Of a DNA stretch of 64,000 nt, positions 16,468 to 21,749 are shown in pieces. The stretch lies in the NCBI RefSeq assembly GCF_902498065.1, contig NZ_CABVIR010000003.1:496001-560000 (forward strand), given 5' to 3'. This DNA is from Pseudomonas fluorescens (GTDB lineage: Bacteria; Pseudomonadota; Gammaproteobacteria; Pseudomonadales; Pseudomonadaceae). Within the stretch, counting starts at the first letter, position 1. The number at the start of each line of letters is the position of its first letter. The translations under genes were made by a program, and so were the position numbers. Under the pieces are notes generated by a model. It ran no database searches. It was not told where the DNA came from and saw only the letters and a list, made by a program, of their open reading frames with translations.

Positions 16468-17805
16468 TTACAGGGTCAACGTGAGTTTTCTGATCAGTGC
16501 ACCCGGCAACAACGCCGATGCCGTGGCCCGCTGACTGTAGGTGCTCGCCGACAGCAACAGCTCGCGCTCTTCGGTCAACGCTTCCAGCTGCGAACCCAGC
16601 AGGCTGTAAGCACTGTCATCAAAACGCATGGTGCTGACCGGCGCCTGTATCTCGCCGTTCTCGACCCAGAACGTCGCAAACCGTGTCATCCCGGTCATGC
16701 GTGCTCCCGGCTGGTCCGAGTAGTTCAGGTGCCAGAGGTTGCTGATGTACAAACCCGTGCCCAACTGCTTGAGGATCTCCGAGTCCGGCAGTGCGCCTGG
16801 CGCCATATTCAGCGCGGTCGGCGATTCGCCGCCGCTGGCGCCGTTGGCCGTCAGGCCGTATTCGGCGGCGCTGCGTGAACCGACCAATTGCGCGCCAGCC
16901 TTGCCTTCGACGATCAGCTTCAGGTCACTGCGTGGATACCCCTCACCCGAAAAGGCCGGGCTCAACGAGCCGCTGACGTGCTCGTCGAGGGACACCAGCG
17001 GACTGAACGAATGGTCGCCCGCGTAAAGTTTCTGCAGCGGGCTGCTCTTGCTGGCAATCGACTGCGCAGAGAAGCCACCCCAGGACAACATGCCCATGAT
17101 CTCTTCCAGCGCGGCCGGCGCCAGGTAAGCGCGATACTGACCCGGTGCCAACGTACGCAATGGACGACCCAGGAATTCAAGCTGCTCACGTGCCTGCTGG
17201 AAGCGCCGGGCAAACCCTTCGCTGCTCCAGTCATGCCCGGCATAGCTGGCTTTTACCGCCTGGCCGTTTGCATGGAACAGGCTGAAGTCGAAGTTGAAGC
17301 TGTTGGCCTGGTGCCAGCCGAACGCGCCTGAAGAGCTGGCGAAACCACGACTGATCGGACCTGCAGCGTAGAAGCCGACCAGGTCCAGGCCTTCGGCAGC
17401 CTGGGCGATTTCGGCGACCACTTGCTCGGTGTCCGGCAGCGGATGCGCCTGTACGTTCTTGCTCTGCCAGCCGTTGTGATTGAGCAGCAGGTATGGATCC
17501 TGCGGCAGCAGCGGCAGGGTGTCGCGCAACTGTTGCAGCCCTTCGGCCAAACGCTGGAGGTCGACTTCAGCGTCGCCCGACAGCGTGATGTCGAGGTCGG
17601 CATGCCGCCCCTCGTTGATCAGTTTGAAACCGACACTCGCCTGCTGAACCTGTCCGGCCTGACGCACCTTGGCGTGGTTGAAACGTACAAAGGCCGACGA
17701 CTCGGCGGCGTAGCTGAGGGTGAATTGTTCCGGTTCGCGAATCGCGTCGCGCAGCCAGTTGACCAAGGCCTTGAACCCATCGGCCTGATTGTTTGACGTA
17801 GTCAT
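16468..17805 (-). CDS. TldE/PmbA-like subunit of a metalloprotease pair
   Basis: A 445-residue cytoplasmic protein of the TldD/PmbA superfamily without the HExxxH zinc motif, so it is the inactive partner type (TldE). Features include GISRGFASSSGAFGW-like core, LVSLDEHVSGSLSPAFSGEGYP and the C-terminal GLYISNLWHLNYSDQ segment. Its ATG overlaps the stop of the upstream TldD-like gene by one base (TGATG), implying translational coupling and a heterodimer. It is not the canonical pmbA, which normally sits elsewhere in pseudomonads. Confidence 0.85.
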   Translation of the reverse strand: MTTSNNQADGFKALVNWLRDAIREPEQFTLSYAAESSAFVRFNHAKVRQAGQVQQASVGFKLINEGRHADLDITLSGDAEVDLQRLAEGLQQLRDTLPLLPQDPYLLLNHNGWQSKNVQAHPLPDTEQVVAEIAQAAEGLDLVGFYAAGPISRGFASSSGAFGWHQANSFNFDFSLFHANGQAVKASYAGHDWSSEGFARRFQQAREQLEFLGRPLRTLAPGQYRAYLAPAALEEIMGMLSWGGFSAQSIASKSSPLQKLYAGDHSFSPLVSLDEHVSGSLSPAFSGEGYPRSDLKLIVEGKAGAQLVGSRSAAEYGLTANGASGGESPTALNMAPGALPDSEILKQLGTGLYISNLWHLNYSDQPGARMTGMTRFATFWVENGEIQAPVSTMRFDDSAYSLLGSQLEALTEERELLLSASTYSQRATASALLPGALIRKLTLTL

Positions 17806-19247
17806 CAGGCGTCTCCCCCAAACACATCCACATTGCTGAACACACAGGCCGGGGACGCATGGCCGACACGGATCACCTGATTCGGCTCGCCCTTGCCGCA
17901 GTTCGGCGTGCCCAGAACCTTGAAGGTGCTGGCGTCGCCAACGGCGCTGAGGCTTTTCCAGAACTGTGCGGAAATCGCCCGGTAGTTCGGGTTTTTCACC
18001 ACGCCTTTGAGTTCGCCGTTTTCAATCAACTGAGCCCATTCGCAACCGAACTGGAATTTGTTGCGTGCATCGTCGATCGACCAGGAACGGTTGGTGCTCA
18101 TCAAAATACCGTGCTCGATGTTGCCGATCAGTTGCTCAAGCGGCTGGTCGCCAGGCTCGATGTTCAGGTTGGCCATGCGATCGATCGGCGGGCGATTCCA
18201 GCCGCAGGCGCGGCTGTTGGCGACGCCGTCCATGCCGGCACGGAATTGCGACAGCGCACCGCCCAGTGGACGCAGCAGCAAGCCTTCCTTGATCAGAAGT
18301 TGCTTGCTGGCGGCAGTGCCGTCGTCGTCATGGCCATAGCTGGCGAGCTGCTCGGGGATGTCCGGGTCGAAGGTCACGTTGAGCAGTGTCGACCCGTATT
18401 GCAGATGACCGAAGTCTTCTGCCTTGACGAAACTGGTGCCGGCGTAATTGCGCTCGTCACCGAGGATGCGGTCCAGCTCCAGCGGGTGACCGATGGATTC
18501 GTGGATCTGCAGCATCATCTGGTCGGGCATCAACAACAGGTCGCGCGGGCCTTGCGGGGTGTTCGGTGCCAGCAGCAATTGCAGCGCCTGATCGGCGACT
18601 TTCGGACCTGCACCCACGAGGCCGCAGCGGCTGATCACATCAAAGCCGCCTTGTTGGCCGAAGTTTTCACGGCCCAGGGTTCGGGTCTGGCTGTCACTGC
18701 CGTCGTAGGCGGTGACTTCCAGGCTCGGGTAGACAAAACGCTGGGCCTGGCGCAGCTCAGCGCCGGCGCTGCTGAGGTAGATCTGTTCGACGTTGGTGAT
18801 GCCGATGCTCACCTGCCAGTTCACCAGTCGCTCGTCCGTGGGCACGGACGCGGATTCGGCGCCGAGCAGTTGATAGCAGTCGCTCAGGGACGGGAAAGGC
18901 TGATCGAAATTCGGTGAGAAGTAATCGGCGCGGTCGCTGGAGACGGCGTGATCGCGCAGGTCGAGCAGGGCGTGGGGCTTGAGTCGGCGGGCTTGTTGCT
19001 CGGCTTTTTCCAGCGCAGCTTGCAGGCCGGATTGCGACAGGTCGTTGGTCGCGGCGTAGGCTTCGACGCCGTTGACGCGCACGGTCAACATCGCACCTTC
19101 GTCACGGCTCAGGCTCGGAGGTTCGGCGACGTTCTTGCGCACCGACAGGAACTGGCCGGACTCGCGCACATAACGCAGCGAAAAAAATTCAGCGCCCGTG
19201 CGTAAGGCAGCGAAGCGCTGCTTGAGCTGAGGGTGGAAATCGAACAT
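17805..19247 (-). CDS. TldD-like zinc metalloprotease subunit
   Basis: A 480-residue protein. The active-site motif is H249-E250-S-I-G-H254 (HESIGHPLELDR), with a downstream Cys ligand at C450 in GTPNCGKGEPNQ. This is the TldD catalytic arrangement, but HPLELDR differs from the HGLEGD of canonical TldD. AAGGAGG directly upstream fixes ATG 19247; the open frame continues further without a ribosome site. Known TldD/E pairs trim peptides such as microcin B17; the substrate here is unknown. Confidence 0.86.
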   Translation of the reverse strand: MFDFHPQLKQRFAALRTGAEFFSLRYVRESGQFLSVRKNVAEPPSLSRDEGAMLTVRVNGVEAYAATNDLSQSGLQAALEKAEQQARRLKPHALLDLRDHAVSSDRADYFSPNFDQPFPSLSDCYQLLGAESASVPTDERLVNWQVSIGITNVEQIYLSSAGAELRQAQRFVYPSLEVTAYDGSDSQTRTLGRENFGQQGGFDVISRCGLVGAGPKVADQALQLLLAPNTPQGPRDLLLMPDQMMLQIHESIGHPLELDRILGDERNYAGTSFVKAEDFGHLQYGSTLLNVTFDPDIPEQLASYGHDDDGTAASKQLLIKEGLLLRPLGGALSQFRAGMDGVANSRACGWNRPPIDRMANLNIEPGDQPLEQLIGNIEHGILMSTNRSWSIDDARNKFQFGCEWAQLIENGELKGVVKNPNYRAISAQFWKSLSAVGDASTFKVLGTPNCGKGEPNQVIRVGHASPACVFSNVDVFGGDA

Positions 19248-19482: not shown

Positions 19483-19827
19483 TTAACCGTTCAGATAAGC
19501 GAACGCTGTCACATAGATGAGTAGGCTTGCAAAGAAAGAAGGCAGGATCTTCTTCGTTTTGGCGACTGCGATGAAGGTGCCCACGAGCAGAAACAGTTTC
19601 AGCGCGTCCAGAATTTGAAACTGCTGTATCAGTGTTAATGCATCCATCTTGTTGAAAGCAGTGTCGTATATGATTACCCCCAACATAGCTTGCGCGCTGT
19701 AGCTGATAAAGCGATAAAACGAACCTTGGGTTTGTGTGAGCGCGCTGCTGTTTTTGAAGGCGAAGGGCAGGGCCCTAAATGCAAAGGCTGTACAGGCAGA
19801 AAATGCGATAAGAAGCCAGATTGTCAT
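19483..19827 (-). CDS. azlD: AzlD-family branched-chain amino-acid exporter subunit
   Basis: A 114-residue membrane protein with four hydrophobic segments, N-terminal FRALPFAF and conserved small-protein length of AzlD. It is the smaller partner of AzlC, and the pair exports branched-chain or related amino acids in characterised cases. Its ATG overlaps the azlC stop by 4 bp (ATGA). Codon use and base composition are AT-richer than the neighbouring tldD and betA, suggesting acquisition. Confidence 0.8.
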   Translation of the reverse strand: MTIWLLIAFSACTAFAFRALPFAFKNSSALTQTQGSFYRFISYSAQAMLGVIIYDTAFNKMDALTLIQQFQILDALKLFLLVGTFIAVAKTKKILPSFFASLLIYVTAFAYLNG

Positions 19828-20549
19828 GAGCCCATCCTGACTCGTTTTTTGTAACTGTTTTCAATAAGCACGATCAAACCGCCAATTATGAAAGGTGTGC
19901 AGAGCAGGCTGTAATCTCTGAACAAGTAGACCAGCAGTGGCGCAGCGACAAAGCCCAGCCAGTAACCCGAAACTTCCGCATAGTGAGGCCAGTGTTTACC
20001 AGCCAACGCGGTGAACTGTAACGGTAACAGGAGTGTCATGGCTGCATAGATAATTGGCGACGTCAATTTTGCACCAGCAACGAACCCGATATAGGTGCAA
20101 ATAACCGACACGCCAAATATCGGGAGCCCCAACCCGATCATGTAGCTAAATGGGTGGTCTACTCTTCGTTTAAATCGAGTGACGCATCCGGTGAATATCG
20201 AAGGCGTAATAAGAACTAACGAGGCCATGATGGCCGCGGTGGAAGTATTTCTTATATGCGGCGCAAGTGTTGCGGAAAGTAGTACAAAGCGAGCGTTGAG
20301 AGCCACGATGATAGGGAGTAAAATCCATCCGTCGTTATGGTTCTGTACTATCAAAAATTGTAATGGGGTAGAAAATATAAACAGAGTCGTTGCAAGGGAT
20401 TGGCTTAAAGTTAGTGATTGCGAGGCGCTTAGAGCGCCAATCGAGAGGTAAAGAAAGATGAATGCGACGCCGAACGTGATTGCATCGCGAGCCCCTTCTT
20501 TAAATACGTTGCCGGATGAAGATGGGGCGCGTACGTGCGCGGCAACCAT
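19824..20549 (-). CDS. azlC: AzlC-family amino-acid exporter subunit
   Basis: A 241-residue inner-membrane protein with 6-7 hydrophobic segments and an AzlC/YgaZ pattern: GARDAITFGVAFIFL near the N-terminus, then FIFSTPLQFLIVQ and LNARFVLLSATLAPHI. The start ATG at 20549 shares its A with the TAA stop of the upstream dioxygenase gene (TAATG), so translation is coupled. A longer frame to 20570 lies inside the dioxygenase gene and is less likely. Substrate may be the product of the dioxygenase (inference). Confidence 0.8.
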   Translation of the reverse strand: MVAAHVRAPSSSGNVFKEGARDAITFGVAFIFLYLSIGALSASQSLTLSQSLATTLFIFSTPLQFLIVQNHNDGWILLPIIVALNARFVLLSATLAPHIRNTSTAAIMASLVLITPSIFTGCVTRFKRRVDHPFSYMIGLGLPIFGVSVICTYIGFVAGAKLTSPIIYAAMTLLLPLQFTALAGKHWPHYAEVSGYWLGFVAAPLLVYLFRDYSLLCTPFIIGGLIVLIENSYKKRVRMGS

Positions 20550-21559
20550 TAACAGGCCTCCCGAGTACAAGCTGTTTCATTCAGTGCGTAGTATTGCTTT
20601 CTAGGACCTTTGCTTCGGAACAAGAGCCGGGGCGTATTATTGAACGTGGAGTTGTTCGCATGGGCACGAACCTGGTCGGCATCGAGATTCAGCATCGGCC
20701 GTGCGTGCAGTACCTTGTGGTTGGCCACGATAAGGAACGTGCCGGTTTCAGCAATTGAGACATGATTTTTTGCGCTGCTAAGGCCAGAACGTATTTTGTC
20801 TAGGACATGTTGGCCGCCGTTTACCGCGCGCATCCGTGCACCGTTCTGCGGATCAATTCGGAAATCCAGCGAAAATTGAAAGCCGTAGATTTCGGAAAAT
20901 TTGACTACTTGGCGAACCCGTTTTTTTAAGCCGCTAACGTTTTTGCCGGATATAAACGCAGCTTCCATTGTTAGTAGTTCGTGAATCTCTTGATCGTTCA
21001 GCTCGCACAGCAACGAGCTAGGAAAGTAGTAAGCGGTGGGGGTTTTTGTGATGTCGCGGCAAACGGTTAGGGCTAAATAGTCTACATCCAGGTTTTCATA
21101 TAGATCGTCGGAGTGTGGAGTGATATCACCGTGTCCGTTGCCCCATTCACGATGTTTTTCTGCCGACGGCTTTAGAAACAATGCTTTGTGTTCTTCGTAT
21201 TCGTACTTTATATCAGTAAGGTGGAACAGGTCGGCCAAAGCCTCGTGCACTGTCAGAGCCAGTTTTGGCGAGTCTAGGTTGAAAATATTTGTTATACAAA
21301 TAGCTGCGTGGCCATTCCTAAGACCTACCGTGCCAAAGTGGGCAGTGTCTTCTGTGCGCAAGTAGGTCAAAAAGAGGTTGATTAATTGGGATTTTAAAGC
21401 GTGCGTGCCTTGATTGTTATTTTTTTTCCACCAAGACTCAATGACACCAGCCAAATAGCCAAAATCCAAAAAAACTGTTTTTTCTTTAGATATTTCTTCT
21501 CTGAAAAAACTGACGTCCGTAGTTTTGTCGATGCACTGCAAGGTCTTGATTTCCTTCAA
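20549..21559 (-). CDS. Clavaminate-synthase-like Fe(II)/2-oxoglutarate dioxygenase
   Basis: A protein of about 336 residues resembling the clavaminate synthase / amino-acid hydroxylase branch (AsnO, VioC type). The iron triad is visible: H149-S-D151, exactly eight residues before DYLAL as in that family, and distal H285 in NHKVLHARPML. R311 or R315 in TPRLLFR would hold 2-oxoglutarate. The start is uncertain: TTG 21559 lacks a clear ribosome site, and a TTG at 21541 follows AAGGA. The gene is first in a coupled operon with azlC and azlD, in AT-rich DNA. Amino-acid hydroxylation is inferred from family and context; the substrate is not known. Confidence 0.72.
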   Translation of the reverse strand: MKEIKTLQCIDKTTDVSFFREEISKEKTVFLDFGYLAGVIESWWKKNNNQGTHALKSQLINLFLTYLRTEDTAHFGTVGLRNGHAAICITNIFNLDSPKLALTVHEALADLFHLTDIKYEYEEHKALFLKPSAEKHREWGNGHGDITPHSDDLYENLDVDYLALTVCRDITKTPTAYYFPSSLLCELNDQEIHELLTMEAAFISGKNVSGLKKRVRQVVKFSEIYGFQFSLDFRIDPQNGARMRAVNGGQHVLDKIRSGLSSAKNHVSIAETGTFLIVANHKVLHARPMLNLDADQVRAHANNSTFNNTPRLLFRSKGPRKQYYALNETACTREAC

Positions 21560-21715
21560 ATATTCATTGAGGCTAGGTTGAGCCGGGCGCGAATACTAGT
21601 GGAAATTTTTAAATGTGTGTAATTGGAAGTGTTACTAGCTGTTGTTAACAGGGAGTGTAATTATTTAGTTGCTTGGTGTGTATGTAGCTGGCTGAGCGGT
21701 TAACTTGTGTTAGGC

Positions 21716-21749
21716 AAAAAAAACCGCCGACCCCGGGAGGTTGACGGTT
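21716..21749 (-). terminator. Rho-independent terminator after betA
   Basis: On the minus strand AACCGTCAACC pairs imperfectly with GGTCGGCGGTT and is followed by eight U. It lies 20 bp beyond the betA stop. Confidence 0.85.

Follow-up and report, generated by a model that had tools for sequence, protein, structure and literature searches.

Operons that encode an amino-acid dioxygenase together with an exporter have been proposed to supply bioactive compounds. In the paper on the IDO and Hil operons, the proposed output is an antimicrobial amino acid or dipeptide, which is made and then expelled (PMC3684760). The IDO operon of Bacillus thuringiensis encodes a 2-oxoglutarate (2OG) dioxygenase whose substrate is a free amino acid, together with the exporter RhtA, and RhtA-type pumps are proposed there to expel the antimicrobial product. 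In the Hil operon of Pantoea and the Pseudomonas syringae group, dioxygenases are proposed to modify isoleucine, HilD to ligate and HilE to export (PMC3684760). As for the two-gene exporter AzlCD of Bacillus subtilis, PMC10882977 describes it as broad, controlled by AzlB and conferring resistance to 4-azaleucine, histidine and asparagine. Resistance to diaminopropionic acid is mentioned in the same paper as unpublished, and AzlCD homologues are said there also to act in plain amino-acid homeostasis.

The cassette described here lies in a 64,000-nucleotide stretch of a Pseudomonas fluorescens genome (contig NZ_CABVIR010000003.1, positions 496,001 to 560,000; hereafter the window) and consists of three genes on the minus strand: an Fe(II)/2OG oxygenase-like gene (20549..21559; 336 aa, TTG start), azlC for the larger subunit of an AzlCD-type amino-acid exporter (19824..20549; 241 aa from the overlapping ATG; Pfam PF03591) and azlD for the small exporter subunit (19483..19827; 114 aa; Pfam PF05437). 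A preliminary description of this DNA had reported that the genes are joined by TAATG and ATGA overlaps, and both can be read directly. The azlC ATG overlaps the oxygenase stop with one base in common (TAATG, 20551-20547), and the azlD ATG overlaps the azlC stop (ATGA, 19827-19824), so the three genes would probably be translated at matched levels. The AT-richness claimed for the block is equally plain, with a GC content of 0.42-0.50 versus about 0.59-0.64 in the flanking genes (500-base windows) and a GC3 of 0.51-0.58 in the three cassette genes versus 0.77 in both neighbors. Of the two names given to those neighbors, betA stands (TIGR01810, 934 bits, cut-off 732). The other, tldD, is a family label only for a TldD/PmbA-family gene (17805-19247) that passes the Pfam PmbA/TldD domains but falls far under the NCBIfam TldD cut-offs (95.3 vs 635 and 54 vs 513 bits). 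This tldD-like gene and the next gene (16468-17805) may form a divergent TldD/PmbA pair.

The cassette differs from IDO and Hil in its parts. Those operons have PF10014 and PF13640 dioxygenases and further encode a binding protein, a LysR regulator and the dehydrogenase HilC (PMC3684760). The window cassette contains no such parts; its oxygenase has instead a clavaminate-synthase-like fold and its exporter is AzlCD. No regulator or resistance gene is part of it. Membership in the Hil system was considered and rejected, because the cassette has only three genes, lacks the core of HilR, HilP, HilA, HilB and HilC, and has an oxygenase that matches neither PF13640 nor PF10014. The earlier statement that no system of this composition has been described thus needs qualifying, in that IDO and Hil combine different exporters with different families of amino-acid dioxygenase. 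For the specific pairing of this oxygenase with AzlCD, we found no description in a literature search by titles and abstract starts, with most subscription journals outside its coverage.

We put it at about an even chance that the cassette is a self-contained system for producing a modified amino acid and sending it out of the cell. The oxygenase would most likely hydroxylate or desaturate a common free amino acid with Fe(II), O2 and 2OG, and the co-translated AzlC-AzlD would expel the product, so that the producer is protected and the compound delivered outside. That product would most likely be a bioactive amino acid, for instance an antimetabolite, and not a nutrient.

Fold and active site of the oxygenase

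In Pfam and NCBIfam alike the oxygenase stays below every curated cut-off, and its assignment as a probable dioxygenase rests on weak sequence matches plus fold comparison. Two families were tried and rejected. GntD (NCBIfam NF041363) is weakly matched by all nine family members in alignment A5 (best E 1.9e-6), with the window oxygenase scoring 19.7 bits against a cut-off of 345. For TauD (PF02668), the gathering score was not reached, the window protein having no match and one of the nine family members matching at E 0.15. When the single protein was searched against the PDB with phmmer, nothing matched at E 1. A profile of the nine members gave five PDB matches in total, namely NapI (E 0.23), KDO1 (E 1) and OrfP (E 2.1), all of them insignificant, and ribosomal protein S3 for the other two; the NapI and KDO1 alignments fall on the iron motifs. 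KDO1 is an L-lysine 3-hydroxylase and OrfP an L-arginine beta-hydroxylase, and these weak sequence neighbors thus act, by name, on arginine or lysine. A branched-chain substrate, which the preliminary description had floated, finds no support in such neighbors or in the breadth of the B. subtilis exporter, and we dropped it for lack of evidence.

We compared predicted structures with the PDB. The AlphaFold model of the window oxygenase has a mean pLDDT of 57.8, and its 50 listed Foldseek matches, which we take to be Fe/2OG enzymes or relatives, all have E >= 0.008, none reaching 0.001. The model of a homolog from a gammaproteobacterial metagenome-assembled genome (MAG; L017), a protein 53% identical to the window oxygenase (52% in another alignment), has a pLDDT of 64.4 and gave 13 matches at E <= 0.001, every one an Fe/2OG oxygenase. 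With VIA-align, the Z values for CsiD (12.4), CAS (12.1), KDO1 (12.0), AsnO (11.8), VioC (11.7) and NapI (11.7) are effectively ties. The glutarate hydroxylase CsiD/GlaH, which acts on glutarate and is encoded in a lysine-degradation operon, is thus a tied best fold match (rmsd 4.3, 232 aligned residues, 12% identity). More broadly, CAS, AsnO, VioC, OrfP, NapI and KDO1 have a similar fold (Z about 10-12), as does KDO5 by Foldseek only, and identity between this clavaminate-synthase-like set and the window-type oxygenase is about 9-15% in structural alignments. Foldseek and VIA thus both recover the double-stranded beta-helix of clavaminate-synthase-like oxygenases. The two models have mean pLDDT 64 and 58, and in both of them values fall below 50 in the segment that holds H149 and D151 and over much of the C-terminal part. 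Membership in the fold class of clavaminate-synthase/CsiD/KDO/AsnO/VioC-type Fe(II)/2OG oxygenases is well supported by these predictions.

The oxygenase has the H-x-D/E ... H facial triad of the clavaminate-synthase-like family. Its putative iron ligands H149, D151 and H285 (numbered as in the preliminary description) are invariant in the 12 rows of alignment A4, the nine of A5 and the six of A1, and they are also present in a truncated copy (L024). The triad reported earlier is thus kept in every copy that we aligned or read, and no loss was seen in relatives. The motif positions of HxD/E and the distal histidine are as in NapI and KDO1, yet the acidic ligand is Asp in all oxygenase rows (HSD), where the aligned NapI and KDO1 have HTE. 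CAS, AsnO and VioC likewise use Glu, so the HxE signature of the CAS/AsnO/VioC-type subgroup is replaced by HSD in this family. Two arginines in an RxxxR motif, R311 and R315, are also invariant across the aligned oxygenase rows. In the wider family, the RxxxR arginines serve 2OG and the substrate carboxylate and lie 14 and 18 residues after the distal histidine. R311 and R315 could be these cofactor- and carboxylate-binding arginines, but they lie 26 and 30 residues after H285, a longer stretch than in the family and in a region of low model confidence.

Linkage of the oxygenase to an AzlCD exporter

The two downstream genes had been named as the halves of an AzlCD exporter, and adjacent open reading frames passing both Pfam cut-offs agree with this (AzlC PF03591, 54.2 bits, cut-off 32.1; AzlD PF05437, 31.7 bits, cut-off 23.7). 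No solved structure resembling AzlC was matched. The cassette thus has a two-gene exporter like that of B. subtilis, to which YgaZH of Escherichia coli is also comparable.

To see how regularly the exporter accompanies the oxygenase, as the preliminary description had suggested doing, we surveyed several genome sets. The oxygenase is present in six of 298 sampled Pseudomonas genomes, the window's own included. Two short peptide patterns, run on one genome per species across 84,980 species, matched 60 stretches, of which 12 loci were confirmed (11 Pseudomonas and the MAG); such patterns can miss more diverged oxygenase copies, for example those in genome G308. Further samples of the phylum (2/398, own included), the class (2/369, own included), the order of G308 (1/247) and its family (2/140) yielded two more carriers, G308 and G986. 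Four of the six Pseudomonas survey genomes are loci already found in the species scan and were counted once, which leaves 16 distinct oxygenase genomes: 13 Pseudomonas, G308, G986 and the MAG. The nine-base uptake signal of the Haemophilus type occurs four times in the 13.0 kb of the G308 locus (L021) and four times in the 7.8 kb of the G986 locus (L024), which together with order membership suggests that these two genomes are Pasteurellaceae.

In 15 of the 16 genomes azlC and azlD stand directly next to the oxygenase gene, the MAG being the exception. All 15 cassettes have TAATG or TGATG at the first junction and 14 have ATGA at the second, L014 differing, and this holds although cassette genes of Pseudomonas and of the Pasteurellaceae-like genomes are only 43-51% identical. 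Some copies are damaged: the L014 oxygenase frame is interrupted close to its beginning, and G986 has a truncated azlD and an oxygenase without its initial part. Among ten Pseudomonas copies the genes are under purifying selection, with a median dN/dS of about 0.10 for the oxygenase and 0.09 for each of azlC and azlD (out of 45 pairs, 23, 31 and 26 were usable; L005, L007 and L014 excluded; synonymous sites are near saturation). The linkage of the oxygenase to azlCD is real, and a coupling of the enzyme to the exporter is well supported. Two outcomes that the preliminary description had named as refuting its reading, homologs mostly without azlCD and loss of the triad in close relatives, were thus looked for and did not appear.

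Linkage might nevertheless arise without shared chemistry, the genes being co-inherited while AzlCD carries something other than the oxygenase product, and the distribution of AzlC bears on this. A profile search matched AzlC in 19 of 119 Pseudomonas genomes. Four matches, each in an oxygenase-carrying genome, score 443-456 bits; the remaining 15 reach at most 50 bits, and none of their genomes is among the six Pseudomonas with the oxygenase. The cassette AzlC thus forms a clade far from other Pseudomonas AzlC (> 440 vs <= 50 bits). When the class was sampled with 321 genomes, E 1e-16 was passed by just three, G000 (456 bits), G308 (386) and G1117 (114). The azlC of G1117 (Pfam 90.4 bits), the nearest other relative of the cassette AzlC that we found, has an MFS gene upstream and stands without an oxygenase, as co-inheritance alone would allow. 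But the cassette subtype was seen only together with the oxygenase, no copy without one being found among the sampled genomes (119 Pseudomonas, 321 of the class), and overlaps and linkage persist over two bacterial families at the identities given above. We therefore regard linkage without shared chemistry as very improbable. In G1117 itself (L062:3227-6067), the MFS gene is followed by azlC and a small overlapping frame, the group lying beside a catalase-peroxidase gene; this frame, of 114 codons and in the azlD position, has no Pfam match at E 1e-5.

In the MAG, which contributes a single 6.2 kb contig, the oxygenase gene is followed by genes for an ATP-grasp protein and an MFS protein in place of azlC-azlD. 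The MFS protein passes MFS_1 (38.4 bits, cut-off 33.4), and the ATP-grasp protein stays under both relevant Pfam cut-offs (ATPgrasp_N, 26.5 of 27 bits; LAL_C2, 20.6 of 29.4), its only PDB matches at E 0.001 being to BacD (best E 6.4e-5). From this one contig, genes for a ligase-like protein and an MFS pump appear to have taken the place of the exporter, in an arrangement that looks biosynthetic. The set of dioxygenase, carboxylate-amine ligase and MFS pump is that of Hil (PMC3684760). A similar logic of modified amino acid, ATP-grasp ligase and exporter is found in the bacilysin operon with its BacD ligase and BacE exporter, although the MAG contig has the oxygenase instead of anticapsin genes.

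The MAG relative and the IDO/Hil precedent lead us, by analogy, to favor a bioactive product over detoxification. Detoxification by the cassette would also be compatible with the data, since in B. subtilis AzlCD gives protection against toxic amino acids (PMC10882977). In its explicit form, the oxygenase would modify a toxic amino-acid analog from plants or competitors and AzlCD would export the analog or the product. The resistances recorded for B. subtilis AzlCD, to 4-azaleucine, histidine and asparagine, fit such a role, as do the patchy presence in Pseudomonas and the horizontal exchange described below; the biosynthetic look of the MAG locus, from one contig, speaks against it. We think a resistance cassette rather unlikely, yet the most serious competitor of a system that makes and releases its own product.

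A more specific form of production and release, which we advance tentatively, is a minimal, horizontally exchanged antimetabolite system. An HxD-variant oxygenase would make a toxic or signaling amino acid in one step, a dedicated AzlCD would provide both release and self-protection, and elsewhere the same enzyme would feed a dipeptide ligase and an MFS pump. If this is true, the cassette would represent an oxygenase family as yet unnamed in Pfam and NCBIfam and, within a two-step system, a dedicated AzlCD exporter with a substrate that is likely not a house one, and it would link exporters of the AzlCD type, which have been investigated chiefly for homeostasis, to modified amino acids that are secreted. 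A barcoded mutant library exists for one cassette host, P. fluorescens FW300-N2E3 (PMC9007349), in which the cassette maps to NZ_CP012830.1:1724131-1726186 as calculated from locus L012.

Insertion site, putative transcription signals and movement

The cassette lies between betA and the tldD-like gene in all 13 Pseudomonas (the window and 12 others). Of 29 genomes examined for the site, 16 yielded a tldD-like gene. Seven of these have betA about 170-360 bases away and no cassette (empty sites), two have the cassette (one being the window's own genome), one carries other sequence, about 1.25 kb long, between the two genes (L050:250-1501) and six have no betA inside the 1.5 kb examined. The site may thus accept different inserts. 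No target-site duplication was recognized by eye in the seven empty-site rows.

Two conserved elements separate betA from the cassette, both on the minus strand. A hairpin with a T-run after betA (21716..21749) was recognized by eye in all 11 aligned upstream rows from carriers and in none of the seven empty-site rows, and is a probable betA terminator; since it is kept in carriers and not recognized in empty sites, it may have arrived together with the cassette. A conserved block 5' of the oxygenase gene (21583..21644), seen in the alignment of 11 Pseudomonas upstream regions, is a possible promoter or operator of the cassette's own. The scan found no consensus sigma-70 site in this block, and the sigma-70 and terminator scans as a whole gave counts near shuffle levels (2 vs 2.9 and 5 vs 3.2). 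At the level of sequence, hairpin and block point to separate transcription of betA and the cassette. A single sub-threshold Rfam match, to a CRISPR repeat, was taken as chance.

The constant address in Pseudomonas raises the possibility of a housekeeping role, in which a hydroxylated amino acid would be a compatible solute or nitrogen store, AzlCD would balance its pool and the site beside betA would matter. Homeostatic exporters among the AzlCD homologs are in keeping with this. However, the two Pasteurellaceae-like genomes have the cassette at other addresses: between a di-heme cytochrome c peroxidase-type gene and uvrB in G308, and after amino-acid-type ABC-transporter genes in G986. In addition, the terminator-like hairpin between betA and the cassette is conserved, and 292 of the 298 sampled Pseudomonas do without the cassette. 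We consider a housekeeping role improbable, and a functional tie to betaine synthesis was dropped because of the different cassette neighbors in other hosts. At these other addresses the cassette is again AT-rich, with a GC content of 0.23-0.31 versus 0.34-0.48 in the surroundings in G308 and of 0.29-0.35 versus 0.38-0.47 further upstream in G986, where the contrast is weaker (0.33 just before the cassette and 0.32-0.39 downstream).

Comparisons among Pseudomonas carriers indicate that the cassette moves. Over about 2.5 kb, from 21850 to 19301 (a tract without strand), the window and P. violetae (L007) are 96.7-100% identical in every 150-base bin, whereas the flanking bins are mostly at 0.80-0.95 (range 0.79-0.97, three gapped bins aside). 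Synonymous differences between the two are 0.02-0.04 in the cassette, against 0.24 for betA and 0.36 for the tldD-like gene. In the other comparisons the cassette is mostly the more divergent part (median pS 0.70-0.73 vs 0.28 and 0.42 in the flanks), a pattern compatible with repeated exchange or with faster evolution. The trees disagree as well: among 11 rows, the cassette tree joins the window with L007 (100) and L013 with L016 (100), and the flank tree joins the window with L011/L018 (80) and L013 with L015 (100). A near-identical tract in diverged flanks and discordant trees argue that the cassette moves between Pseudomonas species while keeping its address, with flank recombination as the simplest route; on these alignments, the block is horizontally transferred as a unit, and the tract common to the window and P. 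violetae marks a recent transfer. The oxygenase had no match in 72,556 plasmid records or 50,697 phage records, and none of 58 pattern matches in viral contigs was confirmed, so no phage or plasmid carrier is known.

Two carriers have unusual surroundings. In P. fluorescens FW300-N2E3 (L012:8275-8970), an RraA-like gene (PF03737, E 6.6e-40) lies between azlD and the tldD-like gene, which in the other carriers are separated only by a short gap. In G986 (L024:4552-6716), the decaying cassette is followed by partial repeats, 84-94% identical, of the amino-acid-type ABC-transporter genes that lie upstream of it, as would result from an insertion coupled to a local duplication.
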